Assembly: GCA_029582155.1 (NCBI GenBank)
Contig: CM055909.1
Location: forward strand, 47,184,412 to 47,248,411
Source of the DNA: Panopea generosa
Taxonomy: Eukaryota > Mollusca > Bivalvia > Adapedonta > Hiatellidae
Reading direction: 5' to 3'
Length of the DNA: 64,000 bases
Numbering within the stretch: the stretch's first letter is position 1; each line of letters opens with the position of its first letter. Position numbers and translations under genes: made by a program. The notes beneath the pieces were generated by a model. That model had not been told where the DNA came from and searched no databases. It saw only the letters and a list, made by a program, of their open reading frames with translations. This document shows, piece after piece, positions 6,828 to 58,373 of this stretch.

Positions 6828-7039
6828 TGGCAAACGGTTACTATTTATATATTCATAAGTAAGGTAAGGTAAGTGAGCAAACAGTTACAATGTAATTATA
6901 TAAAGTAAATAGGCAAACGGTTACTATTTATATATATACATGGTAAATGGATAAACGCTTACAATTCATATATTTAAAGTAAATGGGCAAACGGTTACTA
7001 TTTATATATATATAAGGTAAATGGGCAAACGGTTTCAAT

Positions 7040-7083
<44 letters not shown>

Positions 7084-7185
7084 AATGGGCAAACGGTTAC
7101 TATTTATATATATTAGGTAAATAGGTAGAAAGTTGCTATATACATGTATAAATAAAGTAAATGGGTTGAGCGTTACTTTTTATAA
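6828..7185. repeat. Degenerate ~40-bp tandem repeat with a TA tract
   Basis: About nine units share the core GGCAAACGGTTACTATTTAT followed by a TA-rich part and AAGGTAAATG. Core starts are spaced about 35-60 bp apart because the TA run varies, with the longest (TA)n at 7042-7078. The length variation suggests slippage in the TA part of the unit. Confidence 0.85.
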
Positions 7186-9264: not shown

Positions 9265-9985
9265 TTTACTAATGAAATAAATAAACGAAAAAATAAACAA
9301 ACACAATGTCATATATAATCAAATATATAAATTTCAAAGATAAACACTATTTTGACCTTTAATAAATTTAAAAGATGCACCGTACTCGCATGTTTAGAAA
9401 CCACAACTTATAAACTGTCTGCGCATATCAGACAACATAGACAGCTTTTCAAAGATAGCAGTTAAATGCGCATCTATCAATATCAACCAACGCGTCAACT
9501 TCGTCAAAACGTCCAGACGTCCGGCAAGTTTCGGTCTATTGATGGAGAGCGTCATTACAAGAGCGAGTGTCAATATAATGATAAAAAATGACACGTTGAG
9601 TTATCTCAGTAAACAGATAAATTATCTGGGTAAACAGATACATCACCGAGTTAATGCAGCTCATTGATTATTTTCCTTATTAGCTCAATATTTATATCGT
9701 GCTTGTCTAAACCATCGGCTTATGATCCATAAATGTGAGATACGATGATAAAGTATCAATATATCGCAATTTTGTTCAATTATGTGCTGTAACAGAAATA
9801 GTGGTAATTTATCGCAGTTTTGTTCAATTATGTGCTGTAACAGGAATGGTAGTTGTATTAATAATTAAGTTTTGTTCAATTACGAACTGCAAGACTTGAT
9901 GTTTTCATTAAACTGTCGTTATAGTGGACACTTTTATATATAAATGGTGTTTTAATCATTCGTTCGATTTTGGGAATTATTTAGA
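9265..9985. other. Spacer with a short ~60-bp duplication
   Basis: Near 9755-9845, ATCGCAATTTTGTTCAATTATGTGCTGTAACAG-like sequence occurs twice about 60 bp apart. A third weak copy (TTTTGTTCAATTACGAACTG) follows at about 9870. Otherwise no features. Confidence 0.6.
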
Positions 9986-9989
9986 GCAA

Positions 9990-11470
9990 TGTTGGTTGTA
10001 TCAATTGGGCATTTATGTAGAGCAACGGTGGTTGTACCTATAGGAATAATTATGTAGATCGATGGTGGTTGTACCAATTAGAGCAAATGTAGTTGTATAA
10101 TTTGGGCAATTATGTAGAGCAACGGTGGTTGTATCTATTAGAATAATTATGTAGAGCAATGGTGGTTGTATCAATTTGACCAAATGTGGTTGTATCTTTG
10201 GGTAAATATGTAGAGCAATGGTGGTTGTTTCAATTAGAATAATTATGTAGAGCAATGGTGGTTGTACCAATTAGAGCAAATGTAGTTGTATCATTTGGGC
10301 AATTATGTAGAGTAATGGTGGTTGTATCAATAAGAACAAATGTAGTTGTAGCATTTGGGCAATAATGTAGAGAAACGCTGGTTGTATCTATTAGAATAAT
10401 TATGTAGAGCAATGGTGGTTGTATCAATTAGACCAAATGTGGTTGTATCTTTGGGTAATTATGTAGAGCAATGGTGGTTGTTTCAGTTAGAAAAATTATG
10501 TAGAGCAATGGTGGTTGTACCAATTAGAGCAAATGTAGTTGTATCATTTAAACAATTATGTAGAGTAATGATGGTTGTATCAATTAGAGCAATTATGTAG
10601 AGCAATGGTGGTTGTATCAATTAGAGCAAATGAAGTTGTATCATTGGGCAATATGTAGAGCAATTGTGGTTGTATCAATTAGAGCAATTATGTAGAGCAA
10701 TGGTGGTTGTATCAATTAGAGCAAATGAAGTTGTATCATTGGGCAATATGTTGAGCAATGGTGGTTGTATCAATTAGAGCAATTATGTAGAGCAATGGTG
10801 GTTGTATCAATTAGAGCAAATGAAGTTGTATCATTGGGCAATATGTAGAGCAATGGTGGTTGTATCAATTAGAGCAAATGAAGTTGTATCATTGGGCAAT
10901 ATGTAGAGCAATGGTGGTTGTATCAATTAGAGCAATTATGTAGAGCAATGGTGGTTTTATCAATTAGAGCAAATGAAGTTGTATCATTTGGGCAATATGT
11001 AGAGCAATGGTGGTTGTTTCAGTTAGAACTATTATGTAGAGTAATGGTGGTTGTATCAATTAGAGCAAATGAAGTTGTATCATTGGGCAATATGTAGAGC
11101 AATTGTGGTTGTATCAACTAGAGCAAATGTGGTTTTGTCATTTGGGCAATTATATAGAGCAATGGTGGTTTTATCAATTACAGCAAATGTGGTTATGTCA
11201 TTTGGGCAATTATGTAGGGCAAATGTGGTTGTAATAATATTTCATAGTACTTATGGTTGAGAATTTGTGTTAACCAATATATGGTTTATTGGACATTTTT
11301 TGTTAGAAATGGTGGTTGTATTATTTTACAGTAATAGTGGATACATTTGTACAAAAATGGAGTTTGTTTTAACCTATTGTTCTATTGGGCAAATGTGTAG
11401 AACAATGCTAGTTTTAATATTTGGGCAATTATGTAGAGCAAATGTGGTTGCAATTATACGTCATAGTAAT
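9990..11470. repeat. Minisatellite of alternating ~37- and ~34-bp modules
   Basis: Two related modules alternate: CAATGGTGGTTGTATCAATT plus AGAGCAATTATGTAGAG (about 37 bp), and CAAATGAAGTTGTATCATTG plus GGCAATATGTAGAG (about 34 bp). Between about 10610 and 11000 the copies are almost uniform. The edges are more diverged, as expected for expansion by unequal exchange in the middle. All open frames here (for example 10013-10270 minus and 11051-11260 plus) are repeat translations. Confidence 0.95.
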
Positions 11471-11945
11471 TATGGCTCAAAAACCAATATATCGTAGACT
11501 GGACAATTTTGTTAGAAATGGTGGTTGTATTATTTTATCGTAATAGTGGATGCTTTTGTATAGAAATGGTGATTATATGAATATATCGTAGTGCTGGACA
11601 AATATGTACAGTCATGTGATTGTTTTAATCAAACTATCGTATAGTGAACACGAATGTTATGTGATGGTGTTAGTATTAATCTATCGTAGGTGTGGACAAT
11701 TTTTTCGAGAAATTGAAATTTTGTCAATGTATCGTCTGGAGGGTAACTATACAAAGTAATGACGGTTGTATTAATCTGTCATAGTATTGGTAATGTGGTA
11801 TTATCAATATATCGTTATGCTGGCACGTTTTGTTATAAAAAATGGTTTTGTTATTATGTCGTAGTATTGGTCATTTATGTAAAGACATTGTGGTTGTATT
11901 CAAATAGAAATACAATATGGTTTAAAGAATACTTATTATAATTTA
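11471..11945. repeat. Decayed flank of the 9990-11470 array
   Basis: Blocks such as GAAATGGTGGTTGTATTATT and ATATCGTAGTGCTGGACAA recur irregularly. They look like an older repeat made of a related GGTGGTTGTA core plus an ATCGTAG/GGACAATTTTGTTAG block, now too diverged for a fixed period. Confidence 0.7.
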
Positions 11946-12289
11946 ATGGTGCTTTTTTCTTAATTTTCGGTTATAATGTAAAATTCTGTTATCATTTTTT
12001 ATATAATAACTTAATTAATGTATTTGCTTTCAATAACTTAGTTTCGCAATCTATCTAAACTGATGTTTTTGCTTTCAATTACTTAGTTAGGCAATTTATC
12101 TAAACTAATGTATTACTTACTTTAGCAATTAAGAGTAACAGCTTAACAATATTCAGATACAACTATCGTTAGTTGAAAAACATTAAAAGCCCACAATATA
12201 TATATATATATATGAATATGTGAATATAATAAAAACATGGACAATAAAAGGCCATCAATTAAATTTAATGATTTAACCATTTTTAATGG

Positions 12290-16867: not shown

Positions 16868-18615
16868 CAAACAATACGACGTTAAAGTGAATGTACGTAT
16901 AATACGACGTTAAAGTGAATATATAACACGACGTTACAGTGAATATATAACATGACGTTAAAGTACATATATAACACGACGTTAAAGTGAATACGTGATA
17001 CGACGTTCAAGTGAATATATAACACGAAGTTAAAGTTAATATAGAACACGACGTAACAGTGAATATGTAATGCGCCGTTAAAGTAAATATAGAACATGAC
17101 GTTACAGTGAATATATGATACGACGTAAAGTGAATATCTGATACGACGTTAAAGTGAATGTACGTATAATACGACGTTAAAGTGTGTATATATAACACGA
17201 CGTTACAGTGAATATATAACACGACGCTAAAGTGTATATATATAACACGACGTTAAAGTGAATACATGATACGACGTTCAAGTGAATATATAACACGACG
17301 AAACGGTGAATATATAATACGACGTTAATGTGAATATATAACACGACGTTACAGTGAATATATAACACGATGTTAAAGTGCATATATAACACGACGTTAA
17401 AGTGAATACATTATACGACGTTCTAGTGAATATATAACACGACGTTACAGTGAATTTATAATGCGCCGTTAAAGTTAATATAGAACATGACGTTACAGTG
17501 AATATATGATATGACGTAAAGTGAATATCTGATACGACGTTAAAGTGAATGTACGTATAATACAACAATAAAGTGTATATATAACACGACGTTACAGTGA
17601 ATATATAACACAACGCTAAAGTGTATATATATAACACGACGTTAAAGTGAATACATGATACGACGTTCAAGTGAATATATAACACGACGAAACAGTGAAT
17701 ATATAATACGACGTTAATGTGAATATATAACACCACGTTACAGTGAATATATTACACGATGTTAAAGTGCATATATAACACGACGTTAAAGTGAATACAT
17801 GATACGACGTCCTAGTGAATATATAACACGACGTTACAGTGAATACATAATGCGACGTTAAAGTTAATATAGAACACGACGTTAAAGTAAATATAACATG
17901 ACGTTAAAGTGAGTATATCACACGACGTTTAAGTGAATATTTAACACGACGTTAATGTGAATATAATACACGACACTAAAGTGAGTATATAACACGAAGT
18001 CAAAGTAAATATATAACACGACGTTACTGTGAATATATAATACGACGTTAAAGTGAATATAGAACACGGCGTTAAAGTGAATACATGATACGACATTCTG
18101 GTGAATATATAACACAACGTTACAGTAAATATATAATGCGCCGTTAAAGTTAATATAGAACTTGACGTTACAGTGAATATATGATATGACGTAAAGTGAA
18201 TATCTGATACGACGTTAAAGTGAATGTACGTATAATACGACGTTAACGTGTATATATAACACGACGTTACAGTGAATATATAACACGAAGTTAAGTGAAT
18301 ATATAACACGACGTCACAGTGAATATATAATGCGACGTTAAAGTTAATATAGAACACGACGTTAAAGTAAATATAACACGACGTTAAAGTGAGTATATCA
18401 CACGACGTTTAAGTGAATATATAACACGACGTTAATGTGAATATAGAACACGACGCTAAAGTGAGTATATAACACGAAGTTAAAGTAAATATATAACACG
18501 ACGTTACTGTGAATATATAATACGACGTTAAAGTGAATATAGAACACGACGTTAAAGTGAATATATAATACGACATTGTAGTGAATATATGAATAATACG
18601 ACGTTACATTGAATT
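16868..18615. repeat. ~24-bp satellite array, about 1.75 kb
   Basis: About 70-75 units of the type ACACGACGTTAAAGTGAATA followed by TATA, with 21-24 bp variants (TTACAGTG, TTAATGTG, CTAAAGTG; GAACACG or GATACG junctions). A longer marker, GTGAATGTACGTATAATAC, appears at about 16889, 17156, 17546 and 18221. The surrounding unit order is also partly repeated, so longer blocks have been duplicated. As 24 is divisible by three and the minus strand lacks stops in one phase, long false frames (up to 152 codons, repeating LYIHFNVV) appear on the minus strand. Confidence 0.97.
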
Positions 18616-18619
18616 TTTT

Positions 18620-20915
18620 TGGCGAAAACAAAGAACTGATAAATATAGAAAAATACACAAACTAATGTTTAACGATGAAAACAAAACAAACACATGTTTC
18701 CCACCAAGCAAGCCCTAGTCACTAACGTAACTTTATAACATATAAGACGGAATGTTCAACAAAATACAGGTTAGACACCACTTCTAGTTGAATTGAAGAA
18801 GCAAGATCTCGTAACGAACATACTAATAAAAATCTTGAGTATAACTTATGTGCTCGCAACTATAACTGACACATATTGTCACATAAAGCATTTGACAGAG
18901 CTTGGTGTCAAACCTGAGACCACAGCAGTAAAAAGTGAATGGTGGTAAAACGGTATCTAACACCACATATATCATATATACTAATTATGTCAATGAGAGC
19001 CGTCGATAATGTGGGAGTTTCTACGAGAGGTGAGAGAGGTGGGACGTGTTTATGACAAACCGTAATTACGGAGCAATGTAAATATAACTTAATCCTGAAT
19101 AAATGGATAGCAGAGCACAGAGCGCAAATAAGAAACGAAACAAAAATAAATATTTTTTTTTAATCTGTTTATGAGGAATGATAATGAAATAAACAATACT
19201 CTTACTACCCTATTCGCAACAAGGATGATCCCTATAGTCCCAAAAAGACGAGATATAATGACAGCACTCTGTGTCCGAGAAAAGACAACGATTATGGTGA
19301 AGATTAATGTAAACCACAACACGAATTACATTGTCATAAGACAAATATACCACATGCTAAACAAATAGAAGGCAATCAGTGTTTATTAACATTTATCATA
19401 CACATACCAATATGTTGTATTCAAACATTTCAGATTAATGAGTTGACAGATATTACAAAGAAATGTCCTATCTTGGATAAAAATAAATAATAAAAACCGA
19501 TAAAAACTCCGACTTTCCAAGATGTCTGATGAGAAAGGGTCAATTGGCTGAATCAGATATAAACACTTTCTCCGGACAAGATTACTTTGAAGAAGTTAAT
19601 AGAAAGAATTGTGTCGTATAATTCACTCTTTTTCAATATTGTGAGATGAGTTATTGGTACAAACGAAAACGTGATGTAAGGAGTTGTTAATGCCTATAAT
19701 AATTATTCTTATCTTCGAACATCGATAAAGGCAATATACACCATTGAATTGTGCGTCTGGATACGGCGAGGTAATTAACAGTTAGACCAACACAGGCGCA
19801 ACCTACTGTCGGACAGAACAAATGATTTGTTTAAAACACAACGATTAAAAGCGACATTAATGATAGAGCACAAACAGTCGAAGTATTCATTTAAATTAAA
19901 CAGACACGTATTCAGTCTCCGGCACCGGCCATCACATGTGTATAAGACGAAAGCGAACAATAGGTCTATATAAAATAGTATAAACTTTCGTTTAAATGTA
20001 TTCTTCACTAGTTTTGTTAACTAGTTGTAGTCGACATTCGGACTGGCTGCTGCGAAACTTGGTTATAGTGGAGCATTTTGTTTATTTATTTTATGGCGGA
20101 GGGAGTATTAACTGGACGGTGGAACGTGTTGCAGTCGTGTATACAACGTAGTTTGCCTATCAATCAAAATTTGATCACGAGTGTTTACAACACCGAGGTC
20201 TGTGTACGTACTTATCATCGTTCACTTTCATCTATTCTTGAATCTTACAATCGGTATGTTTGCTCGCGGAAATAATCCCGGTGATAAACGCCTATAACAT
20301 TTACATAAAGATTAGCGTGATGTTGATAATTGCTTGGAGCTGTCAATCATTTTGAATCCTTTAAGGACGTTAAGATATTTCATGTTTGTTTTAACCGCAT
20401 AAAACATAAGGCTTAATTGTAACGCTGAATGTTTATTTGTAGTTTGTTCTTTTTAAGCCTTTGGTTCGTATACATTGTCGCATTTCGCAAGTACGTGTTA
20501 AAATAAAAAAACACAGCAAAAAATCACTTATATTAAATTCGAACACGTCATTCGGCACCGGCTGACAGATACAACTTGTGAAATTTATCGATGATACTGT
20601 TTTTTCGATTAAGTCATTTTCTGTGGTTAGAATACGTTTATATTAACAGGACACACAGCTTATAAGGTATTGAACATATCTGTCGATTTGCATTTTTGAA
20701 ATACAGACTAGTTATCGTGATATTTGATTGACATTTTTGGAGGTGTACCGCTGTATTATATTTGGTGGGTGGGGTGTATACAAGCTTATACTCCACGGGC
20801 AGAGAGGGAAATTCGTCACGCTTGAGTACACACGATAAGTTTATGTTGTAATACACGACAAGAGAAGTGCACGAATCAACGGTTCACCTGTTCAAATTAA
20901 GCCACACCGAACATT
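18620..20915. other. Spacer leading into the LINE; probably includes its 5' UTR
   Basis: No host gene is recognised. From about 20040 the base composition becomes less AT-rich and resembles ORF1 more than the flank, so a 5' UTR with an internal promoter may begin somewhere in 20040-20900. I found no target-site duplication to fix the 5' end. The frame at 20078-20275 (65 codons) has no domain. Confidence 0.45.
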
Positions 20916-20919
20916 TAAG

Positions 20920-22113
20920 ATGTCTTGTCTTAACTATGACACTATAACCCAAGATGCGGAGGCTTATGTTGATTCTATCATGTCGTCCCAACGGATAACG
21001 CGAGTTAATACGCCACAACATAGTGGACGTAAGAGACATCTTTCTGTTCCCCTCGCTAATGATAGTACAGTGAAGAAGGCCAGAAATGACGATCCGTGTC
21101 GCGTTAGGGTGACCGCTAAACGTTCGCTTTATCAAGCCGCGCCTACTCCTGCTCCCCGTAATATCAATGTTACTCAGGCGGAGGTCCATCACGACTCGGA
21201 TATAGGTGTTAAGGATATTCTAGCCAAGATGTCCGCAGACATGCATATGCTTTTTACCTCGCTGTCCGAGCGTATTGATAAGTTAGAATCCGGACTTGAG
21301 CAACGGATATCTGCCAAAGTGGCTCAACTGTTGGACAAACGCGTCAACGTGGAACTAGGGCGCATTAAGAAAGATGTCGACTCTAAACTCGACACTTTCA
21401 GAGACACATTACGTGAAGAGATCGCTGATGATCTTCAAGAGATAAACAATAAAATGAGTTCTATTGTGACTCCTGCGACAAACAATACACCGGATATTTC
21501 TCTGAATGTTGTCATTAGAAATCTCCCCGAAAGTGTCAACGAAAATCTGGATGAGAAGGTCAACTCACTTATTTCACATGGCCTGAAAATTAATTCTGTT
21601 TCTGTTGCCAGTACAGAACGTAAACTGTCAAATAATAACAGTAGAGCCGGTGTGGTAATCGCTAAGTTGAAATCTAGTGCCGATAAAAGTAAGGTAATGT
21701 CTTCCAAGTCTTCATTAAAGAATAACCGTCAATATCCTGACGTTTTTATCCATAATGACCAAACAAGAGACGATCGCTTGATGTCTAATAATTTCAAAAC
21801 CATCATTGATGCCATCAACCGCGGTGATAAATTGTCACTACATGGTTCGCGAGTTGTGAATAGACGCAACCACCACAATGGTAACACTCGTGATAACGGC
21901 TATCATACTCGAGGCGGTAGTACGAGGCCCAGGTCCGATAATTCAACTGACGCTTCTACGGGATCGGTTTCACACTCTGGTGCTGCTCAAACCTCGGGTC
22001 AACAAGGTCAGAACTCAAACAGACAGAGCCAACACAGCTGGAACACGGCAAATGGCAGGCGTGGCGGTCGAGGATATGGTCGACGTGGTAATGGACATAG
22101 AGGTCGTTGCTAG
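20920..22113 (+). CDS. LINE ORF1 protein (RNA-binding, coiled coil, RGG tail)
   Basis: 397 residues. By analogy with other LINE ORF1 products it should bind the element's RNA and package it with ORF2. Residues ~1-95 are basic and low in structure. Residues ~97-185 form a charged helical stretch with heptad-like leucines (SLSERIDKLESGLEQRI onward), a likely coiled coil for oligomerisation. Residues ~191-310 hold an RRM-like region with VVIRNLPE at its first strand and VFIHNDQTRDDR near its end. From ~330 the protein becomes Asn/Ser/Gln-rich and ends in Gly-Arg repeats (GRRGGRGYGRRGNGHRGR), a typical nucleic-acid-binding tail. The ATG has a purine at -3. The frame ends in TAG at 22111-22113. 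Beyond that stop the same frame stays open into ORF2. Function is inferred from layout, not from a database hit. Confidence 0.9.
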   Translation: MSCLNYDTITQDAEAYVDSIMSSQRITRVNTPQHSGRKRHLSVPLANDSTVKKARNDDPCRVRVTAKRSLYQAAPTPAPRNINVTQAEVHHDSDIGVKDILAKMSADMHMLFTSLSERIDKLESGLEQRISAKVAQLLDKRVNVELGRIKKDVDSKLDTFRDTLREEIADDLQEINNKMSSIVTPATNNTPDISLNVVIRNLPESVNENLDEKVNSLISHGLKINSVSVASTERKLSNNNSRAGVVIAKLKSSADKSKVMSSKSSLKNNRQYPDVFIHNDQTRDDRLMSNNFKTIIDAINRGDKLSLHGSRVVNRRNHHNGNTRDNGYHTRGGSTRPRSDNSTDASTGSVSHSGAAQTSGQQGQNSNRQSQHSWNTANGRRGGRGYGRRGNGHRGRC

Positions 22114-22173
22114 GTACACGTCGGGTTCTGGAATGTTAGGGGTTGGAATTGTGATTCTACTAGTGATAATTTT
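22111..22173 (+). other. In-frame TAG junction carrying the first endonuclease motif
   Basis: ORF1 ends TGC-TAG. Reading on in the same frame gives VHVGFWNVRGWNCDSTSDNF directly before the ORF2 ATG at 22174. WNVRGW (tryptophan codon at 22129) matches the N-terminal asparagine motif that binds metal in APE-type endonucleases, so this 60-nt stretch belongs functionally to ORF2 although no ATG precedes it. The base after the stop is G (UAG-G), a context also seen at some recoded stops. Whether recoding happens is inference. Confidence 0.85.
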
Positions 22174-25100
22174 ATGTTGAGGTCATCATGTTTGAACTCT
22201 CTAAACCTAGATATTATAGGCATTGCCGAATCTCATCTTAAAGCTAGTGATGTACTACAGCTAGAAGGTTACCAATGGTACGGTAATAATCGCAAAAACT
22301 TACATATACGGGCTAGGACGGGTTCTGGGGGAGTTGGACTTTTTATTCGCAATGACATTGTAAAGTGGTTTAATATATCTGTTCTAGATAACACTAGAGA
22401 AGGTGTTCTTTGGTTACAACTTACTCATAAAACAGAAGATATCGTGATTTTACCATGCGTATGTTACCTTCCTCCCGATAACTCGTCCCGTCACGTAGAT
22501 GCTTTTAATTTTTACGATAATCTTTTGACGGATATGTATGAATACCAAAATGTAGGAATACCGTTTATATGTGGAGATTTCAATAGCCGTTGTGGCGATA
22601 ACAATGATTTTATTGTTGGTGTTGATTCTTTGTGTGAAAGAAATGTCGTTGATTTTAAGACCAATGCATTTGGTGATATTTTAATTGAATTTCTTATTAA
22701 TGCCAATATGTGTATTCTTAATGGTCGTAATTTTATAAACAATGATTTTACATCTATTTCTACTAAAGGTTGTTCCGTTGTTGACTTCTGTTTAGTAAGT
22801 CATGATAATTTATCACTGTTCGATGATTTTTCAGTTGTACGTGCTGTTGATGCCGTCAACCTTTGTAATAATATTTGTGCAATTGCTCCAACAAGTATTC
22901 CAGATCATTCAGTATTAACATGGTGTATAAAGTTTGAAAATCCAACTGTTTTTACGAATAAATCAGATGTTACTGATGGATACGATAAATTTGACGTACA
23001 TAGTATGCCAAATGATTTTTTGGCTGGTACTGATATTGTTACCAAGGTTAATGCCGCAATTGCAGACTTGGAAGGCAGTCTCCGTTCACAAACTGATATC
23101 GATGTGGCTTTTAATGGCTGGTGTGACATTGTTAATCATGAAATGTATAACCGGCTGCCTTTTAGGTCTGTATGTTGCGGCATTAACAATAAGAAAAGGC
23201 GTATTGGAAAGCCTTGGTGGAATAATACTTTGACTGATTTATGGAACTCTGTTTGTAAGTCTGAAAAAGATTGGTTAAACTGTAATGTTATTTATCTAAA
23301 AAATAAACTCAAATCTGATTACTGTTATGCTAGAAAGTTATTTGATAGAGAGGTTCAACGCTCTAAACGCCATCATTGGTATAAAATACAAGATGATATG
23401 TTAAATGATATAAATAATGATCCGAAAGAATTCTGGAAATCTATTGGTAAAATAGGCATACATAATAACAAGAAAAAGTCAATTCCAATGGAGGTTCTTC
23501 TGGATGATGGTAACTTGACTTCAGATGTTAAGGATGTTTTAAGTAAATGGGAGAAAGATTATAGTAACCTTTATAACTCTACTATTGATTCCATAAGAAC
23601 TAATGATCATAATAATGTTGGTAACACGAATACTAGTTTTATTTTGGATGAGCATATATCTATTCTAGAAGTAAAAAAAGCTATTGAAAATGCTAAAAAA
23701 GGTAAAGCACATGGTATAGATAAAATACCGGTGGATGTTCTTAAAAATGATACTTCGGTATACTTTTTACATGTTCTTTTTAATGTTTGTTTTAATAAAG
23801 GTTGTATTCCATCTTTATGGGGTAAATCTATTATAAATCCTATACCTAAGTCAAGCTCCGCCGACCCAAAAGACCCACTCTCTTATAGGGGTATATCATT
23901 ATCATCATCCATGTATAAATTGTATAGTTCTATATTGAATAATCGTCTATATATTTGGTCGGAAAATAATAATAAAATTGTTGACGAGCAGAATGGTTTT
24001 CGGAAAAAACGTAGCACAATAGACCAACTTTCATCTCTAACAAATATTATAGATACTAGGAAAAAGCTTAAACGCTCTACATTCTGTGCTTTCATTGATT
24101 TTAAAAAAGCTTACGATTACATCAATAGAGACAAGCTTTGGAAAAGATTGCAGTGTATTGGTGTTTCTAGTAAAATGCTTGTAGCTGTCAAATCTTTATA
24201 TGCATCTGTTTCCTCCTGTGTGAGGGTAAATAATTTTTATACCAACTGGTTTCCAGTGAATTCTGGTTTAAGACAAGGCTGTTCATTGTCACCCGTATTA
24301 TTCAATTTGTTTATAAATGACCTAGCATTACGTATAAAATCCCTTGGTAAAGGTATCTGTATTGATAATGAAAATGTTAGCATTTTAATGTATGCTGATG
24401 ATATTGTACTTCTTGCTGAAAATGAAGAAAACCTGCAGCATATGCTTAATGAGTTAAATAGCTGGTGTAGTATTAACAGTATGACAATTAACTTTACTAA
24501 GAGTAGCATCGTACATTTCAGACCATTGTCAATTGCTAAATCAGATATTGTATTTACTTGCGGTGACAATGTTCTAACTTATACTGATAAATATGTATAT
24601 CTTGGATTAACATTGACAGAGCATCTAGATTTTAATGTAACTGCAAAAATAGTGGCTCAAAGCGCTGGTCGTGCTCTAGGTTTACTTATTGCCAGGTATA
24701 AAAGCTTAGGTGGAATGCCCCATAAAGTATTTACAAAGTTGTTTAATTCACTTGTTTGGTCTGTTATATCGTATGGAGCTACAATATGGGGCGTTAAATC
24801 TTATTCGTGCATAAATTCAATACAAAATAGGGCGATGCGATTTTTTCTGGGAACTGGCAAATATACACCTACTGCAGCCATTTCAGGCGATATGGGTTGG
24901 GTCCCTCCAATAGTCAAACAATGGAAATGTATAGCCAGACATTGGGTACGCAACATCTATACAATTGATACAAGATTAAATAAAAGAATATTTATTTGGG
25001 CACGAAATAAAGCTAATAACTCTTGTAAAAATTGGGTTTTCACAGTTATAAATCAATTTGATAGTTTACAGCTTCATATTCATACATACTCAAACATTAA

Positions 25101-25614
25101 CAAAATTAAATTTGTTGATACTGTATTTGAAAAGATGATGTCTATATATATTACGGAGTGGAAAGCAAGTGTAAATCAAACAACTAGTATACGTGGTAAT
25201 GGACGTAACAAATTAAGAACTTATAGGCTTTTTAAAAATGATTATGAAGTAGAAGATTACTGTAAAATTGTGCTACCAATGAAGCATAGATCAGCGTTTG
25301 CAAAATTCAGATGTGGTGTTGCGCCATTAAAACTAGAAACTGGTCGATATGAGGGTATTAATGAGAATGACCGGTTATGTCCTTTCTGTAATGATGCTAT
25401 AGAAGATGAGTGTCATGTTATTTTAAAATGTGCCTCTTATAAAGATATTAGGACAGATCTGATGCTTAAAGCAGTAAGCATAGATGCAAACTTTAACAAT
25501 TTTGATGACTGTAATAAAATGAAGTTTCTCTTTTCCAATAAAGATATGATAAGAATATGTGCCAAAACCTGTTTTACAATACTACAAAAACGTAGAAATA
25601 TTTTATATAAATAA
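22174..25614 (+). CDS. LINE ORF2 protein: APE endonuclease, reverse transcriptase, CCHC
   Basis: 1146 residues from the first ATG. The product would nick target DNA and copy the element RNA there (target-primed reverse transcription). Endonuclease motifs: AESH (E19), YLPPDN, GDFNSR (D135, N137), VVDFCLV (D204) and PDHS (D244, H245). The remaining N-terminal motif WNVRGW lies upstream of this ATG. Reverse transcriptase, about residues 520-830: NGFRKKRST, FIDFKKAYD (D642), LRQGCSLSPVLFN (from about 699) and MYADDIVLL (D742, D743), followed by a thumb/connector with YLGLTL. C-terminus: C1069-x2-C1072-x8-H1081-x4-C1086, a zinc-knuckle-like motif. No frameshift or internal stop is seen. There is no RNase H motif I recognise. 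It is more AT-rich than ORF1. Frames on the other strand inside this interval are shadows. Confidence 0.96.
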   Translation: MLRSSCLNSLNLDIIGIAESHLKASDVLQLEGYQWYGNNRKNLHIRARTGSGGVGLFIRNDIVKWFNISVLDNTREGVLWLQLTHKTEDIVILPCVCYLPPDNSSRHVDAFNFYDNLLTDMYEYQNVGIPFICGDFNSRCGDNNDFIVGVDSLCERNVVDFKTNAFGDILIEFLINANMCILNGRNFINNDFTSISTKGCSVVDFCLVSHDNLSLFDDFSVVRAVDAVNLCNNICAIAPTSIPDHSVLTWCIKFENPTVFTNKSDVTDGYDKFDVHSMPNDFLAGTDIVTKVNAAIADLEGSLRSQTDIDVAFNGWCDIVNHEMYNRLPFRSVCCGINNKKRRIGKPWWNNTLTDLWNSVCKSEKDWLNCNVIYLKNKLKSDYCYARKLFDREVQRSKRHHWYKIQDDMLNDINNDPKEFWKSIGKIGIHNNKKKSIPMEVLLDDGNLTSDVKDVLSKWEKDYSNLYNSTIDSIRTNDHNNVGNTNTSFILDEHISILEVKKAIENAKKGKAHGIDKIPVDVLKNDTSVYFLHVLFNVCFNKGCIPSLWGKSIINPIPKSSSADPKDPLSYRGISLSSSMYKLYSSILNNRLYIWSENNNKIVDEQNGFRKKRSTIDQLSSLTNIIDTRKKLKRSTFCAFIDFKKAYDYINRDKLWKRLQCIGVSSKMLVAVKSLYASVSSCVRVNNFYTNWFPVNSGLRQGCSLSPVLFNLFINDLALRIKSLGKGICIDNENVSILMYADDIVLLAENEENLQHMLNELNSWCSINSMTINFTKSSIVHFRPLSIAKSDIVFTCGDNVLTYTDKYVYLGLTLTEHLDFNVTAKIVAQSAGRALGLLIARYKSLGGMPHKVFTKLFNSLVWSVISYGATIWGVKSYSCINSIQNRAMRFFLGTGKYTPTAAISGDMGWVPPIVKQWKCIARHWVRNIYTIDTRLNKRIFIWARNKANNSCKNWVFTVINQFDSLQLHIHTYSNINKIKFVDTVFEKMMSIYITEWKASVNQTTSIRGNGRNKLRTYRLFKNDYEVEDYCKIVLPMKHRSAFAKFRCGVAPLKLETGRYEGINENDRLCPFCNDAIEDECHVILKCASYKDIRTDLMLKAVSIDANFNNFDDCNKMKFLFSNKDMIRICAKTCFTILQKRRNILYK

Positions 25615-26058
25615 TGTATTATATCTTAAATATAAAACAAATTAATTTTATATTATGTTGAGAAATCGGTGCTAATCAGGTCATTCCAGATCTGATCTGG
25701 GGTGAAAACTGATCTTTTAAAATATTTTTTAAAAAGCTTTTGACTATATAGCGATGCATTTGCATTTATTTTTCCTTTCACGATTTAACAAAAGTTATTT
25801 TAATAATCTTTTAGGTCTCGAGCCAAGATTAGCGCCGGTGTCTCAATTCTTAGTGTATAATGCTTTATAGTTTACATCTTTTTCAAAAATAATGCATGAA
25901 TAATCTGTGATAGTTGTATATATTTTATGTCAATATTATAGCGATAGTCTCTTGTAATTCTAATATTGAATGGCTATGTACGTTGTATGTGTTACTGTAT
26001 GTTTTATTTATATGTTTGTACATAGATGAGACTTAAATAAAGATATATATATAGATAT
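25615..26058 (+). other. LINE 3' UTR with polyadenylation signal
   Basis: No coding frame. AATAAA lies at 26036-26041, followed by a GATATATATATAGATAT tail rather than poly(A), suggesting a simple-repeat 3' end as in several LINE clades. The short GC-richer block GATCTGATCTGGGGTGAAAA near 25690 could be part of a conserved 3' structure used for RT recognition (inference). Confidence 0.7.
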
Positions 26059-28373: not shown

Positions 28374-29120
28374 TAAAACACCTGTAGTTCTGAAATAACT
28401 GTCACTTTAACGTTCATTGGTAAGGTGAGATGTAGAAAAGATACGATAAATAATCAATAGATGACATGACGTTAACGACATCGTGTGAATAATTTATATT
28501 CAAGTCCCACTGCATTTGAATTCTGTTCTTTGTTCTATATAAAATAAGTGCTTGGATTTCCACGTTAAAAAATCCACATATAATTTTTTAAGTACGGTTT
28601 TCCAAAAGCAGGAATGTATCAGCACATACAAATGCATAAAAACCTGCTAGGTTCACCAGCTAGATTTTGTTTTAAAGACTGAGCTGAAACACTCTACGAT
28701 TTAAGTTTTATTTTTAAAAAAGTCGTCAAATACATCTGTTGTAATCCTATAAAAGTCACTTTTTTAACACCAGTGATGCCTAATTGTAGTATATGCTGTG
28801 CCAACTTTTGCTTTACTAGTCTGCAGTAATAAATTACAACTCTTATGAATCATGTTAAAAATATTTTAAACAAAAAAAACATAGAAACATACAAAAGAAT
28901 CTTGCTACCGTGACAAAAAGGGGCGTGACTGAGTAGCGAGACCTTAAGATGTACAGAGACACAATGCCATGTGTGCATATATGATCCCCAGTCCATCGTC
29001 TCTTATATCTATTTTAAGAATTGGGGTTTACATTCTATGAGATGTGTTTTAACCATATACATCTTTATGTGCAATAGTAGTGTGTTTACAATTAAACGTA
29101 AAAACGTAAAATAAATTAGC
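26060..29120. other. Noncoding interval; possible intron of the receptor gene
   Basis: No exon is recognised. If the receptor exon at 29129 is real, its next exons lie at lower coordinates on the minus strand, so this interval, and perhaps the LINE beyond it, would be intronic. I looked for a WTNYT-like motif and membrane segments on the minus strand here and found none. Contents include a 9-bp inverted repeat (ACGTCACGT at 26676, ACGTGACGT at 26698) and a TG tract. Confidence 0.5.
28327..28372. repeat. (TG)n microsatellite
   Basis: 23 uninterrupted TG units. Confidence 0.98.
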
Positions 29121-35030: not shown

Positions 35031-35312
35031 GTCGGGCCAAGTTAGCTCAGTCAAAAGCGCGTTTGAATATTAATTCAGAGGTCATGAGTTCGAATACGCG
35101 CCAGGCCACAGTCTCCGTGATGATTAATATACGATATTCCGTCTCATTGTTATTCGTCTGTTACCGCTGATGCAAGTGGAAAAATTATCAGTTACTTGCA
35201 AAGATTGATGTTGTCGAGAACTGGTTAACTTTCCAGACTTCTAGGATAGAGCGGTTAGGTTATTTTAGCCCTCGATGTAATAAAACTGACGCTTAATACT
35301 CAAACAACTTAA
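35031..35312 (+). mobile_element. tRNA-derived SINE, family A (full length, diverged)
   Basis: The head GTTAGCTCAGTCAAAAGCGC (box A) and GTCATGAGTTCGAATACGC (box B) is followed by CACAGTCTCCGTGATGATTA, CCGCTGATGCAAGTGG, a central CTGGTTAACTTTCCAGA and AGCCCTCGATGTAATAA near the 3' end. Order and spacing agree with the copies at 38420 (minus) and 48753 (plus). No clear target duplication, so it is older. Confidence 0.88.
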
Positions 35313-38039: not shown

Positions 38040-40010
38040 TTGTAAGTGATGATCCAATGATCTTAATGAATGACGCAAAAGATTAGGCTCAATGTGCTAT
38101 CAAATCGTAAGGGTAGTTGACGTCAGTCGAACTAAGGCAATTACCATGGTAAGACAGCAAAAAATAAATTGGCATAAAGAAACAACGATATTAATGGATA
38201 CAAAGATGGTTGTATATAGAGCTAATAAACTACGAACATTTGTAATATACTAAATGAAATACCAACGTACTGCCTAGAATTAAATCTGAATAATTGAATG
38301 GATGAAACATTTTATCTTTAGATGGTACCCAAACTAATCAGATGACACTTCACGGCAATCCTTAAAATAACGTATATACACTCAAGAAATATAAAATCGC
38401 AACTCATAAAGATACATGATTGATTGATTGTTTGATATTTAACGTTATTCTCATACCTTCGAAGGCTAACAGGCGATCGTTTAACCTTATTAATGTTTCC
38501 TGGGTTCCTGAAAGGTTAACCAGTACTCGAGCACACCCCATCTCCACCAACTAACTGATAACTTCTTAGCTTGAATCAGCGGTGCGAGACGAGTGATAAT
38601 GAGACACAATATCGTATACCAACCACCACGGAGACTGTAACCGGGTGGGGATTCGAACTCACGAACCCTGGATTGATAGTCAGACGCGTTACCGACTGAG
38701 CTAATCGGGCCCTGCAAGATATATGAAAACGTAATATATTTAGCACTAGTGTATATACACCCATACTCTACAGTTTATTAATGTTATAAGTCGTTCATTT
38801 GAGATGTTACTGCATGTTTTATTTCCTCCAATATTGGTGTCACCTTTTTCATTTCCAAATAAGTCCCCTCTAAACCCCGTGTTACGTTTTCATATCTCTT
38901 CCAGGAGTGCATTTTCATATCTCTTGTGTGTAATTAGTCTTATTTCAAATATCACCATTATATCTGAAAGTGTATCAAGTACGTCACTAGTTTTTTAATT
39001 GATCATCAGCATTTTCTGCATTATTTTACATTATAACGTTTTTTAATTCACAGTATGTTATGTATAGGTGGTGAGAAGATTCTTAAACCTGAGGTAATCT
39101 TACACGCTATACCTATCTCTCAACATAACGATGCAATATTGATAAATCGAATGAATTGTAATTCCGTTTTATAAACAACATCACAGTTTCCCTAGCTAGC
39201 GTGATAAAACTAATTCAAAATTCAATAAGCTTTATATACAACAGACACTACAATCGACTATATCTCTTTATATTATTTTCATTTTTTGTTAACATTTAGT
39301 TTAGTTCAACCCGTGTTATTTTATGTAGAAACATTACACACTAATCGCGACTGTCATTGTACATAAAAGGAACATTTTTAACTTCCTGTATGTACTGCGT
39401 GCCTCTAAAGTATAGTTTTGCTATAATTCTTTACAACACTTAAAGTGTTACCCAAAATAAGTATAACCTGTATAAACATCATTTTAAATCTCAGTTATAA
39501 GTAAACACTACTTTGTTAGAATCAGTGTCAATAATCATTTTTTTGTAAATAAATATAAAACCGCATACGTTCCATGTGTGAGTTCAATGCATTTAACGTT
39601 TTGAAACACCAACTAGTGCCATGAACCAAAAAAACAGCCAATTAAACAACAAAACCTACCGAAAATCAAATAAATGTTGTTGATAATACAGCCGTCAAGG
39701 GATTTAAAACATTTATGACCTCAGGCACATGTCGCTCTCCTTAAACTATAACGATCATTTAAGTTCCAATTGCACATAGGGAATAAAACAAACAAAACAA
39801 TGCTCGATTTCAAAGTAGAACTAGGACTCGAAATGTTAACCTGCATTGCCCAGACAATAAGAAAATGAGATAGAAAGAATGCTTAATCTAATATGTCACA
39901 AACACCATGGTGACTTTGTTGGACCCGCTGAGTTCTATTTATTTCTAATGACGCATTTTGTGTACGTGAGGAGAAATTGTTTCAGGACCAAATTGTGTTA
40001 CTTGTTTCTC
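38040..40010. repeat. Diverged tandem duplication, copy 1
   Basis: A series of blocks here reappears in the same order and orientation at 40705-43395. Examples: TGATCCAATG (38047/40712), ATGGTAAGACAGCAAAA against ATGGAAAGACAGCAAAA, AAATCGAATGAATTG (39143/41543), CGTGATAAAACTAAT, CAAAATTCAATAA, and TTTAATATGTCACAAACACC-like (39890/43240) with GTTCTATTTATTTCTAATGA. The offset changes exactly where one copy carries a SINE. No coding function is evident. Confidence 0.9.
38420..38715 (-). mobile_element. tRNA-derived SINE, family A, with target-site duplication
   Basis: Read on the minus strand: GATTAGCTCAGTCGGTAACG (box A), GGTTCGTGAGTTCGAATCC (box B), ACAGTCTCCGTGGTGGTTGG, CACCGCTGATTCAAGC, CTGGTTAACCTTTCAGGA, AGCCTTCGAAGGTATGAG and a CAATCAATCAATC tail. 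Flanks are AAGATACATGA at 38409-38419 and AAGATATATGA at 38716-38726 (10 of 11 identical), a target-site duplication made on insertion. The 75-codon minus frame over it is not a gene. The 3' tail type suggests mobilisation by a LINE that recognises a short simple-repeat end. Confidence 0.95.
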
Positions 40011-43663: not shown

Positions 43664-44540
43664 TAATGCAACGACAATGTGCTATCCATACATCAAGCGA
43701 CTACAAGGCAACGTGCTATCCATACATCAAACGGGCACACAGCGCACGGCATTGTGCTATCCATACATCAAACGACTACACGACAATGTGCTATCCATAC
43801 ATCAAACAGACACACAGCGCTGTGCTATCTATACATCAAACGACTACACGGCACTGTGCTATCCATAAATCCAACGGGCACATGGCACATGGCAATGTGT
43901 TAGCCATATATCAAACCGACACACAGCGCTGTGAAATCTATACATCAAACGACTACACGGCAATGTGCTATCCATACATCAAACGGGCACACGGCACATG
44001 GCAATGTGCTATCCATACATCAAACGGGCACACAACACTGTGCTATCTATACATCAAACAACTACACGGCAATGTGCTATCCATACATCAAACGGGCACA
44101 CGGCACATGGCAATTTGCTATCAATACATCAAACGGACACACAGCGCTGTGCTATCTATACATCAAACGACTACACGGCAATGTGCTATCAATACATCAA
44201 ACGGGCACACGGCACATGGCAGTGTGCTATCCATACATCAAACAGACACACACCAATGTGCTTTCCATACACCAAACAGGCACAAGGCAATGTGATATCC
44301 ATACATCAAAAGGGCACACGGCACATGGCAGTGTGCTATCCATACAACAAACGGGCACACGGCAATGTGCTATCCATACATCGAACGGGCACACGGCAAT
44401 GTGCTATTCATACATCAAACGGACACACGACAATGTGCTATTCATACATAAAACGGGCACACGGCAATGTGCTATTCATACATCAAACGGGCACAGGGCA
44501 ATGTGCTATTCATACATCTAATGAGCACACGGCAATATAG
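43664..44540. repeat. 34/41/33-bp minisatellite with trimeric order
   Basis: About 24 units of AATGTGCTATCCATACATCA plus a variable half: CGACTACACGGC (34 bp), CGGGCACACGGCACATGG (41 bp) or CGGACACACAGCGCTG (33 bp). In the centre these three types cycle, giving a repeat of about 108 bp (43826, 43935, 44042, 44151). The unit has no stop codon in any forward frame, so three overlapping frames of about 190-210 codons exist, shifting phrases such as CYPYIKRAH and LSIHQTGT. I do not consider them proteins. Confidence 0.97.
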
Positions 44541-48300: not shown

Positions 48301-48750
48301 CTATTTTCAAAATGTAAATACTAAATCAACACAACAAAATATTTCGCATTATTGTCAAATGACATATTATTTCTAATTTATTTCAATATTCGACACAGAC
48401 GTTTACTTTTATGTCTGTTCCCATAAAACGGTCCATATAACACTGTTTCCCTTTTGTGTTTTATTGTAACATAACACTTTTATGGTCTCCAGCTAATTCT
48501 CGCTGAATATCATCTCTCTTAAAGGCAGGTGGTATATTTATAAAATCGGAAATTTCTGTTTTCCGGAAAGATTTATTATTGAAGCGCTAAGGTTTATTGT
48601 GTGGTTACATTTACTCTCCCTTTAGTATAGGTAAAACAGGAGTAGTAACTCAGAGTTCAGAGTAGGAAAAAGTTTTAAAATGTTGGAACACGGTTATATG
48701 AATGTAAAATCTGTGTTACCCAACCACCGATACTTGCGGATCTTAATACA
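45380..48750. other. AT-rich interval, nothing recognised
   Basis: Frames of 64-91 codons at 45710, 46534-47044, 47369 and 47705 overlap one another or lack domains. A (TA)n tract lies at about 48068-48089. Confidence 0.5.
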
Positions 48751-48752
48751 TC

Positions 48753-49066
48753 ATTACCGGGTCTGTTTAGCTCAGTCAGTAACGCGCCCGACTATCAATC
48801 CAGGGGTCGTGAATTCGAATCCCCGCCCAGCAATAGTCAATCAACAGTGATGATTTATATGCAACAATGTGTCTAATTACCATTAGTCTCTCACCGCTGA
48901 TTCAAATGGGAAAGTTACCAGTAAGTTGCGGTGTGAATGTGTTGGGGATGTGCTGGAGTTCTGGTTAACTTTTCAGGATCCCAGGAAACAGTGGTTAGCT
49001 TAACTGATCGTCTGTTAGCCCTCGATGGCATAAACATAAAATTACGCTAAATATTCAATCAATCAA
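48753..49066 (+). mobile_element. tRNA-derived SINE, family A, with perfect 12-bp target duplication
   Basis: Head: GTTTAGCTCAGTCAGTAACG (box A) and GTCGTGAATTCGAATCCCCG (box B), about 35 bp apart. Body: AGTGATGATTTATATGC, TCACCGCTGATTCAAATGG, CTGGTTAACTTTTCAGGA, TGTTAGCCCTCGATGG. Tail: TTCAATCAATCAATC. TCTTAATACATC stands on both sides (48741-48752 and 49067-49078), proving retroposition. Length is 314 bp. The tRNA-plus-central-domain build resembles known molluscan V-type SINEs, but the family name is not confirmed. Confidence 0.97.
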
Positions 49067-49079
49067 TCTTAATACATCT

Positions 49080-50439: not shown

Positions 50440-51085
50440 GGGGAGCTAAAATACGGCGGGATACTAATGCTCGCTTTCATCCAAACCTGTCACTTAGTCA
50501 TCCAACTTCTTATAAACAAACCAGGTAACGGCTAGCTTGAAAATGGCGGTACGTCCATCTAATCTACTACCTAGTCATTGAACTCCCAGCACCTGATAGC
50601 TAAAATACGGCGGTGTGGTGTTGCACGCTTTCGCTTTAAACTATCACCTTGTCATCCAACTTCTTATAAAACGGCGGTATACCCATGCTAGCTTTCATGC
50701 AAACTACCACCTTGTCATCCGATTTCTTATTAACAAACCTGTTACCAGCTTGCTAAAATACGGCGCTGTGCCCATGCTAACTTTCACGCAAACAACCACC
50801 TTGTCATTCAACGTCTTATAAACAAACCCGGTACCAGCTAGCTAAAATACGGCGGGGTACCAATGGTACCTAGTCATCGAACTTCATGTAAAACGGCGGT
50901 GTACCCATGCTAGCTTTCACGCAAACTACCGCCTTGTCATTCAACTTCTTATTAACGAACCTGGTACCAGCTAGCTAAAATACGGCGTTGTACCCATGCT
51001 ACCTGGTCATCCAACTCCATATAAAACGGCGGTGACCTCATGCTAGTTTTAACTCAAACTACCACCTTGTCATTAACGTCTTATA
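50440..51085. repeat. ~90-bp tandem repeat with internal deletions
   Basis: Modules of GGCGGTGTACCCATGCTAGC, TTTCACGCAAACTACCACC, TTGTCATCCAACTTCTTATA and CAAACCTGGTACCAGCTAGC then TAAAATAC recur six to eight times. Several copies lack one or two modules, so the period is irregular. The 68-codon frame at 50615-50821 is a repeat translation. Confidence 0.9.
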
Positions 51086-51089
51086 AACA

Positions 51090-52598
51090 AAAGAATACGC
51101 TGATACATCAAACTGTTATCAACAAGGAAACATTACAAAATAATGAAACTCCATAAAATACAGCTGATCTGTTCTGTATATTAAGGAAAAATCTACTCAT
51201 TCTTATCTTGATTATATTTACACTGCCGCCATAGTATTTCTCTTTCTACCTGTTTGTATGGGATTTTTTGCAGGATTTTACGAGCTATGAATGACTGATT
51301 GAAGATAGAAAATGATATATTGACTATTAAGCCATTTAAAATGTAACACTGAATTTCATATTGTTTCCAAATTCAATACAATGTATATGGATACTAGACA
51401 GCCTTTTGGATAAAAAACAATATTAATCTTAATGCTAATTGATTCAATTAACAAAATAATTGGTTAGCGTTGATTCTAATGACTATGGTGATGGCACCTG
51501 TTCTGAAGAGCGATCTAAATATGCTTTAAAATGATATGTATAAAATCTTTAAACTTTGACCGGATACTCTCAAGGAAAGATTCAGTATATTTATTTACTT
51601 TTTCAAGATATGTATACATACAGGTAAAAAATTATATTTCCAGAATTGTGTTTGGCCAATTCTATTGAGTTTGACCATATATGTAATAAACTTTAGGCTT
51701 GGTTATATTGAATCAACGAAAATTACTAATACACTTGTATATTCAACTATTCAATTTATGTACATGTAAGATGCCCAGAGCCGTTAATGGAAAACACATT
51801 ATTTACTGTGACCTAGCTTACTTTTACTTGATTCAAATACAATGTTTATTCAAAGTAAAATATGAGAAATTTAATAACTTACATTGATCCATGTTTACTG
51901 ATGTAATTTATAAATCCATGTTGTTCACCCAACCACAAATACTGCACTAAGTAAAACGCGTCCTGCAGTCGGTGCTGTCATATAAACCCATGCTATGTGC
52001 ATAGGTGCTGTATTCCATACTGTTACTGCTTCAATAAAAAACTGGCGTACACGATGTTGAACAAACACAATACAATAGTCAACTTTTTAGTATAAGAGTA
52101 TAGCCGAAACGATACAGACAGGCAACCTGCAGCTACAAAAACACTGACCCAATTAAAACAAGAATGACTTTACATACTAAACTATCAGCATAGCATTTTA
52201 CAAGGATATATATACTGCAGTGCAAATTAATTAGTTTTAATGCTTTTATCGGGGTGTGTGTTTGTTAAATGGCTTAGTTGTACATTCAGTGGGTTACTTA
52301 GTTTATTTTAATGTAAGCGTGCGTGCATATCTATGAAATGTACAATAGCTAGCTGGTTATGTGTTTATTTAAAAGAACTATGTTTGGAAAACTTGATAAC
52401 GAGTTTCTATTTACATGCTTAGCTCCGCCCCCATATGTCATTGCTAATTAAGTGTATTGTTATATATTTATAGAAAAGATGTAATTATCTTTTATAACAC
52501 TCGATCCATTTACAGTAACGGCAACATGAGGTTGTATAATACAGTTGTTAATATGACTTCAGTAAAATTAAAGGAAAAAGAAAATGCTTATCTTTGTA
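51090..52598. other. Noncoding interval, nothing recognised
   Basis: No domain-bearing frame or clear repeat was found. Confidence 0.5.
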
Positions 52599-55479: not shown

Positions 55480-57280
55480 GTGTTAACTAAAAATATCCAT
55501 ATACGAGTATTCTTTTATCATTTAAGATGAACACACACGTGGAAAAACAAATACAAAAACAATATAAGTAAATAATATGGTAAGTAAGCCTGCTTTAAAA
55601 TGACATGAGTAAATACCATAACATAACATAGTATGTAAATATGCAATTTAAAAAGACACACCCAGCCCAATTGACATATAAGTCGTCATATATACAAATA
55701 TACCTCAATGTAATTTCACATGTAAATAAATCCTATCTTATAAGTAAGTTAATATCATTAATATTATAAATCCAAGGCTATTATATAATTTGATATTAAT
55801 TCAAAAACTCGTTTGAATGTCACTGGTTATACATGGTACTACTGCTTCTGAGGTTATCATTGACAATATATTTTGCTATGTTTTTAACAAGATGCTTCAA
55901 CTTGTCGACATTGTTCATATTCTCTATTTCTATATTTAAGCAATTATTTATACTTGTGTAAACTTGGCAGAACTCATAAAAATGTTCCAATGATCTCATA
56001 ATTATGTACAACGAAATATGACCATTTCAAGCATTTTCAAAAAATAATAAAGCCCAGTATATTTACACAGCCACTACTCTAGTTTCATGGACACAATAAT
56101 CTTGCTTCCGTCACTAAGGGAAAGTAATTGGTAGAAACCTTTAAGACAGTTTAATGTATCGCTAATATTTTATTAAGTTGAATAAATGCCACTATAGATA
56201 CTATTACACGAATACTCTGCCAATATAATCTCACATATAACACGATATATATTTTTGACGAGCATTTCGAATGAAAAATAGTAATTTTTTTTATAATTAT
56301 GTGGATTTGAGAAAAAATATATTTCTCTCTGATGACGTTTAAATCAAAATAACACTTATACTAAATGAAATATTAAAGTACAGAACTAGGCATGAAGTAA
56401 TACCATAACAATAAAGATCCTGAAGCACTTAAAGATGAAGTTGTCCAAGTGGCATAGTTTCACAAACACAAGTAGTTCAATTATTTATGATTTTATTCTT
56501 GTCAATATAATTTCCTCATAGCAAGATATAATATAATTATAGTTTAAGTTCTTAACAACCGGTAAGATATACGCCGGTCAATGATTAGTTGGTATGATAA
56601 GATGGTATTTGATTTGAATCGACTGGACGATATTAAAAGTGTCTTTACATTTAATTTCATCACATTATCTTTTTTTATGTTACCTTTGACTTCAAAATAA
56701 AACTATACATTTACAATTGAATTACTTTAATTTATGATGACATTTGATACATCTAAACATAATGTTTAAAACCATATATGAAATTTCAAACTACTACTTA
56801 TTTCCACACCACATGGTGTTTTATATCCCATGAATGTATTCGATATTTCATATCAGCAACTAAAGATAAATTACTGTTGTACACAATGCAAACGCAAGAA
56901 AATAAGCAATGAAATTAAGATATTATTAACTTTTAAATAGTATTCATAATTATGATTTTCAAATAAGACTTCATGTTATACATCTTTCATATGATTCCCA
57001 TATGCTTATATAAATCATGTAACCTTCTCATTTGTCAATCATATGAAACTAGGCTGGTTTTCCAGATATGTTTACCATGAGTATTATATAATACATATGA
57101 CAGAAGGATCATATGTAGCTCATTTTTCTCATAGTTTGCTTAGAGTTAACGATATAAACCAAACATTTCTTCTCTTCTAATCAATTCAATGTACTGTATA
57201 AACACTACATCTTCTTATCGGCTAATTTTGATATGATAATTAAGCTATTCTTCTCTTCATTTCAGTTCAATGTTCAGGGC
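55480..57280. other. AT-rich interval, nothing recognised
   Basis: No gene or clear repeat was recognised. The last ~100 bp show worn units of the following array. Confidence 0.5.
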
Positions 57281-57284
57281 GATG

Positions 57285-58125: not shown

Positions 58126-58373
58126 GTTATGTTATTGATAAGTTGTTATAAAATTGTTTGATGATATATGCGTATTGATAAGAGTTATACCCCTTTAATA
58201 TAAAAATGAGCAAACTATACTATTTGTAAATGTACATTATGTACATACTTAATAGTAAAAATTAATCATTTAATAGCCAATACATTTATTTGCTTTTCAG
58301 TATTTGATTTACAACAACCATATTATTTATATGTATTTCTATAGACAGGCTCTCACCAGATATGTTCACACCA

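Follow-up and report, generated by a model that had tools for sequence, protein, structure and literature searches.

A LINE in the window (the whole 64,000-nt stretch of Panopea generosa DNA analysed here) carries its two open reading frames (ORFs) in one common frame, divided by a single stop codon, and this stop is fixed within the family of sister copies to which the element belongs. It is neither a product of chance nor a private change in the window copy. Since recently active elements carried the stop and no good start codon precedes the endonuclease motif of ORF2, translation of ORF2 probably needs an unusual step, and an element that depends on the complete nuclease would have to get past the stop or make use of it. 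We favour programmed readthrough of the UAG, yielding an ORF1-ORF2 fusion, as a reading on which our belief and doubt are evenly balanced; with slightly more doubt than belief, we propose that the endonuclease-reverse transcriptase is made only in this way, i.e. that a non-LTR element follows the Gag-Pol strategy.

Organization of the element

The element is a nearly full-length copy, which extends over approximately 20570-26053 of the forward strand (on which all features given below also lie), as delimited by a blastn comparison with 39 sister copies and by comparison of their 5' and 3' ends; the interval assigned to it in a preliminary description of this DNA was too short. Its predicted endonuclease/exonuclease/phosphatase (EEP) domain and non-LTR reverse transcriptase identify it as an APE-type non-LTR retrotransposon (LINE). 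The frame from 20920 to 25614 is, as had been described, open except for the TAG at 22111-22113, which separates ORF1 (20920..22110, 397 codons from the ATG at 20920) from ORF2 (22114..25614, 1166 codons followed by TAA at 25612-25614). ORF1 gave no match to any Pfam family above the cut-off; its C-terminal tail is rich in Gly and Arg and reaches the stop, and its product is probably a nucleic-acid-binding protein. ORF2 comprises the endonuclease, the reverse transcriptase (residues 585-834, 23866..24615; RVT_1, PF00078, E 2e-40) and a C-terminal Cys/His-rich stretch.

The preliminary description had also placed an endonuclease motif directly after the stop, with no ATG between the two, and both statements agree with our analysis. 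The 20 codons at 22114..22173 encode VHVGFWNVRGWN according to the translation and the Pfam register, and the first in-frame ATG of ORF2 (22174..22176) is codon 21. Within the encoded peptide, VHVGFWN is what we take to be the first strand with the metal-binding Asn, as in the L1 and APE endonucleases. The match to PF03372 (E 8.2e-8) covers ORF2 residues 28-235 and profile positions 27-208 of 225, which places the start of the profile at about the first codon past the stop and the domain at residues ~1-235 (22114..22818); this start is an extrapolation, because residues 1-27 lie outside the scored match. Thus defined, the putative endonuclease would follow the stop with no codon in between, in the same frame as ORF1. 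An AlphaFold model of the endonuclease, computed without relatives, has a mean pLDDT of 33.6, and the assignment of the first strand therefore rests on sequence, on the Pfam register and on what is generally known of these enzymes. Among solved structures, R2 proteins and L1 ORF2p are the nearest by sequence and lead the PDB matches via the reverse transcriptase region, while a phmmer search of the PDB with the endonuclease alone returned no match at E up to 1.

The 5' end of the element is reached by 23 of the 39 sister copies, which run 12-18 nt past the end of the window copy; the latter lacks ~18 nt (AGTGGTGTGTAACCTGTT) of the family 5' end that are present in most full-length copies. The remaining sisters start inside the element, or their 5' end cannot be recognised, as is typical of LINE copies. 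The 3' ends mostly agree, with AAATAAAGAT followed by an AT-rich repeat in most copies, the window copy included. Exact and near-exact matching revealed no convincing target-site duplications, and there is no second copy of this LINE within the 64-kb window.

Elsewhere, the window contains seven long tandem-repeat arrays with units of 24 to >100 bp (2084-2433, 6865-7125, 9981-11233, 16876-18590, 43671-44536, 50671-51091 and 57272-58126), and a strong GC skew (0.476) in the stretch 10001-12000. Two diverged repeat families, both perhaps SINE-like, are also present, one common to 28524-28875 and 60168-60532, the other to 35034-35307, 38422-38727 and 48743-49068.

Sister copies and the fixed stop codon

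The genome (1.47 Gb in 39 contigs) was searched with positions 22000-22300 of the window as a query, and the best 40 of 70 candidates, 97-100% identical, were retained, i.e. the window copy and 39 sisters; as only these were scored, older copies may be missing from the sample. The sisters are dispersed over many contigs. In the aligned pieces they match the window copy at 97.3-99.6% identity (95.8-96.2% in L050), and we treat all 40 copies as one young family. Three pairs (L037/L038, L028/L043 and L017/L026) have common 3' flanks and are local or segmental duplications, or haplotypes duplicated in the assembly, not separate insertions; the 40 copies therefore stand for no more than 37 independent insertions, and the 12 copies with both ORFs open for no more than 11. 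The members of each pair lie on one contig, ~13 kb apart in the case of L037/L038 and ~220 kb apart in the other two.

The codon at 22111-22113 is TAG in 39 copies and TAA in one (L029), and in none of the 40 is it a sense codon, while at any other codon of the 1564-codon frame a stop occurs in at most 3 of the 40 copies. Within this one young family the stop is thus kept in 40/40 copies, with both flanking frames open in 12/40. A private nonsense mutation in a fused frame, one of three options raised in the preliminary description, is ruled out by these counts; of the other two, recoding stands, and reinitiation on a non-AUG codon stands in a narrower form.

ORF2 is open in 19 of the 40 copies, including the 12 in which ORF1 is open as well. 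Ten of these extend to the 5' end of the element, and the other two, L016 and L029, break off within the 5' UTR. The 12 open copies, among them the duplicate pair L037/L038, differ pairwise by 0.62% on average (range 0.09-1.09%); all of them carry the stop, so elements with the stop were recently mobile. Synonymous and nonsynonymous changes were counted in 11 open copies, with L038 dropped as a near duplicate of L037, and lean to synonymous: omega is ~0.40 in ORF1 (26 synonymous, 33 nonsynonymous), 0.26 in the endonuclease from codon 21 onward (11 and 10) and 0.29 in the rest of ORF2 (36 and 39). Alignment figures for 20570-22050 were not used, since unrelated flanks of the 5'-truncated copies, aligned to the element, inflate them.

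A midpoint-rooted tree of the 40 copies (positions 21918-26030, 88 informative sites, support of at least 0.9 at 12 of 37 inner nodes) groups the young copies in a cluster, outside which lie a few branches at distances from the root of up to 0.03 substitutions per site. The earliest to split off are L050 and then L051 (0.911 and 0.997), and L027, L045, L049 and L039 also fall outside the young cluster. All six have TAG at the junction, so the stop has probably passed through more than one burst of amplification, still within a single family.

Proposed readthrough of the UAG

According to the reading that we favour, the UAG at 22111 would be the true stop of ORF1 in a recently active APE-type LINE, and a minority of ribosomes would decode it as an amino acid and continue into ORF2, the endonuclease starting from the next codon. 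This would yield plenty of ORF1 protein and little endonuclease-reverse transcriptase, the latter joined to the tail of ORF1, in the manner of Gag and Gag-Pol. We infer here the occurrence of readthrough, its rate and the role of the fusion as the working enzyme. Readthrough would explain jointly the shared frame, the absent spacer and the absent start codon, and it predicts more ORF1 than ORF2 product. That a LINE enzyme can be supplied through a leaky stop is suggested by premature stops placed in human L1 ORF2, after which low-level Alu mobilisation persisted, a result credited by the authors to readthrough (excerpts of PMC4176336).

Several observations speak against readthrough. Two ORFs would share a frame for unrelated reasons in about one case out of three, and as the 40 copies represent one young family and at most 37 insertions, the stop may go back to a single old event. 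No stimulator is visible. The stop lies in the context UGC-UAG-GUA, which is not among the known strong readthrough contexts (e.g. UAG-CARYYA). Stretches of 60-150 nt, taken either directly behind the stop or beyond a 6-nt spacer, do not stand out from shuffled sequences in folding energy (z from -0.61 to +0.49), and a scan of the ORFs in 153 segments of 100 nt likewise showed nothing unusual downstream of the stop; the segment 22060-22159, which contains the stop, has z -1.84, equalled or exceeded by 6 others of the 153. Neither a known leaky context nor, in local folding, a stimulatory RNA structure was found. The 20 codons ahead of the first ATG show 3 nonsynonymous and 0 synonymous changes among the 11 open copies, too few to judge or to show selection there. 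TAA is usually read through less than TAG, and the open copy with TAA (L029) counts against readthrough as well; it says little, because this copy is truncated in the 5' UTR.

Alternative routes to ORF2

The main rival to readthrough, which we regard as unlikely and yet deserving of serious attention, is termination-coupled, AUG-independent reinitiation, in which ribosomes would restart on a non-AUG codon at the UAG or adjacent to it and produce a separate ORF2 protein, with the endonuclease strand at its start. The putative endonuclease begins, by extrapolation, approximately at the stop, as a restart site would demand. There are precedents: excerpts of PMC5972666 describe an overlapping stop-restart site in SART1 and an unconventional termination-reinitiation proposed for L1 ORF2, and in the L1 element the ATG of ORF2 can be replaced by any sense codon (excerpts of PMC1965478). 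Against this, the in-frame codons after the stop read GTA CAC GTC GGG TTC TGG AAT GTT AGG, and codons 1-7 contain neither ATG nor a near-cognate in the 40 copies, except for one AGG. Counted from the stop, the earliest near-cognate stands at codon 9 (AGG) in 38 copies; of the other two copies, one has an AGG at codon 4 and one an ATT at codon 8. Between the stop and the endonuclease motif none of the 40 copies offers an ATG or a near-cognate better than AGG. Neither the overlapping start nor the downstream structure of SART1 is seen here, and TGGGA, the calicivirus-type 18S motif, is absent from the 120 nt upstream of the stop. Moreover, reinitiation does not require the two ORFs to share a frame.

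The ATGs at 22052, 22076, 22091 and 22133 belong to another frame, where they lie inside a 106-codon open frame in the +1 register (21860..22180) that overlaps the junction, is open in 36 of the 40 copies, encodes a hydrophobic end and is probably incidental. It does not link ORF1 to ORF2, as entry to ORF2 from it would need a frameshift; inspection by eye revealed no slippery site near the junction.

It is improbable, in our estimate, that ORF2 simply starts at the ATG at 22174, with an endonuclease that functions without its first strand or is dispensable. This ATG is kept in 40/40 copies, the changes in codons 1-20 (all nonsynonymous in the 11 open copies) give no sign of constraint, and the first ORF2 ATG matters in the yeast element Zorro3 (excerpts of PMC1965478). 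A protein started there would lose the first strand and the Asn motif. Both are essential in APE-type endonucleases. In addition, the pre-ATG codons are no more variable than the remainder of ORF2 (0.54% vs 0.50% of cells), a comparison that carries little weight in a family this young.

Still harder to accept is a removal of the stop from some of the RNAs, either with an intron that ends at the AG of TAG or by A-to-I editing of UAG to UIG (Trp). The AG does directly precede the first endonuclease codon, UAG is a favoured triplet for A-to-I editing, and its A is paired in four local folds of different width. Splicing is disfavoured because no pyrimidine tract lies ahead of the TAG; nor does any internal deletion in a sister copy end at 22113, although the search favoured copies that hold 22000-22113 and was thereby biased against spliced ones. 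Editing is disfavoured because copies of an edited RNA would show TGG, which was found in 0/40 (upper 95% bound 7.2% if all 40 are independent). Finally, we consider it most improbable that the family is dead at the junction, i.e. that a source element gained a nonsense change and its copies spread with proteins borrowed from another element: all copies could trace to one such source, and help in trans by other copies was raised as a possibility for Zorro3 (excerpts of PMC1965478), but the other 1563 codons are open in 12/40 copies, the changes lean to synonymous, and the stop is also found in the branches outside the young cluster.

Relatives, literature and implications

No relatives were confirmed in viral_contigs or genome_contigs with six exact peptide patterns per scan, which reach close relatives only, and none were found in phages by tblastn. 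Plasmids gave three weak matches, of which one record was inspected: NZ_CP104070.1 (L001, L002), deposited as a plasmid of Alicyclobacillus fastidiosus, combines IncFIA and catA1 with a broken LINE-like reverse transcriptase, and has the appearance of a cloning vector that carries a eukaryotic insert and contaminated the assembly. A degenerate pattern of reverse transcriptase motifs retrieved two records from viral_contigs (L003 and L004); L003, a phage-like record, was rejected as a relative, since the match looks like chance.

Some Repbase families may already be described as having same-frame ORFs split by a stop. In a search of full-text literature, with subscription journals mostly outside it, none of the listed titles or the excerpts consulted describes readthrough as the normal step from ORF1 to ORF2 of a LINE; the available portions of PMC2734521 contain no mention of a stop between ORF1 and ORF2, and those of PMC4837594 nothing on the Asn motif. 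The earlier remark that recoding in a LINE would be unusual holds only in part: StopGo/2A has been reported in non-LTR elements (excerpts of PMC4981915), and low-level readthrough of premature stops has been inferred for L1 ORF2 (excerpts of PMC4176336).

It is established for only a few LINEs how a single RNA gives rise to the second protein, and the geometry described here combines one frame, one stop, no spacer and no good start with many near-identical open copies. If readthrough does occur, annotation of ORF2 from its first ATG would cut off a part of the nuclease, and the ORF1 tail would form part of the enzyme and might help to keep it with its own RNA. Such a junction could go unnoticed: a survey of bivalve LINEs defines autonomous elements by an endonuclease and a reverse transcriptase in one ORF without stops (excerpts of PMC10294476), a rule that the present element would pass.

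Comparison with known systems

Like mammalian L1, the element possesses an ORF1 and an ORF2 with endonuclease and reverse transcriptase. In L1 the ORFs are separated by a 63-nt spacer and an AUG of ORF2 is present (excerpts of PMC5972666), whereas here there is no spacer, the frame is shared and no AUG precedes the endonuclease motif. Translation of L1 ORF2 is nevertheless described as a non-canonical event independent of its AUG, unlike that of Zorro3 ORF2, which needs its ATG (excerpts of PMC1965478 and, for L1, also of PMC5972666).

In SART1, a non-LTR element of the silkworm, translation of ORF2 is coupled to the ORF1 stop through an overlapping stop-restart site and a downstream structure, and the restart codon is AUG according to the title of a reference cited in PMC5972666, of which excerpts describe this system. 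Coupling to the ORF1 stop is one possible reading of our element too; unlike in SART1, no ORF2-frame AUG overlaps the stop (first 60 nt downstream) and no structure stands out.

Recoding by StopGo/2A has been reported in non-LTR elements of trypanosomes and sea urchin, the 2A peptide motif being D[V/I]ExNPGP (excerpts of PMC4981915 and, for its occurrence, of PMC5972666). The use of recoding by a non-LTR element would be a trait common to these elements and ours, while 2A differs in acting by a peptide motif without a stop codon, and none of the three forward frames of the present element contains NPGP.

In gammaretroviruses, Gag and Pol lie in the same frame and are separated by one UAG, which is followed by G and by a downstream pseudoknot. 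Although the host element is here a LINE and not a retrovirus, and no pseudoknot is demonstrated, the present arrangement resembles that of gammaretroviral Gag-stop-Pol in that the upstream ORF and the enzyme ORF share a frame and are divided by a single UAG followed by G.
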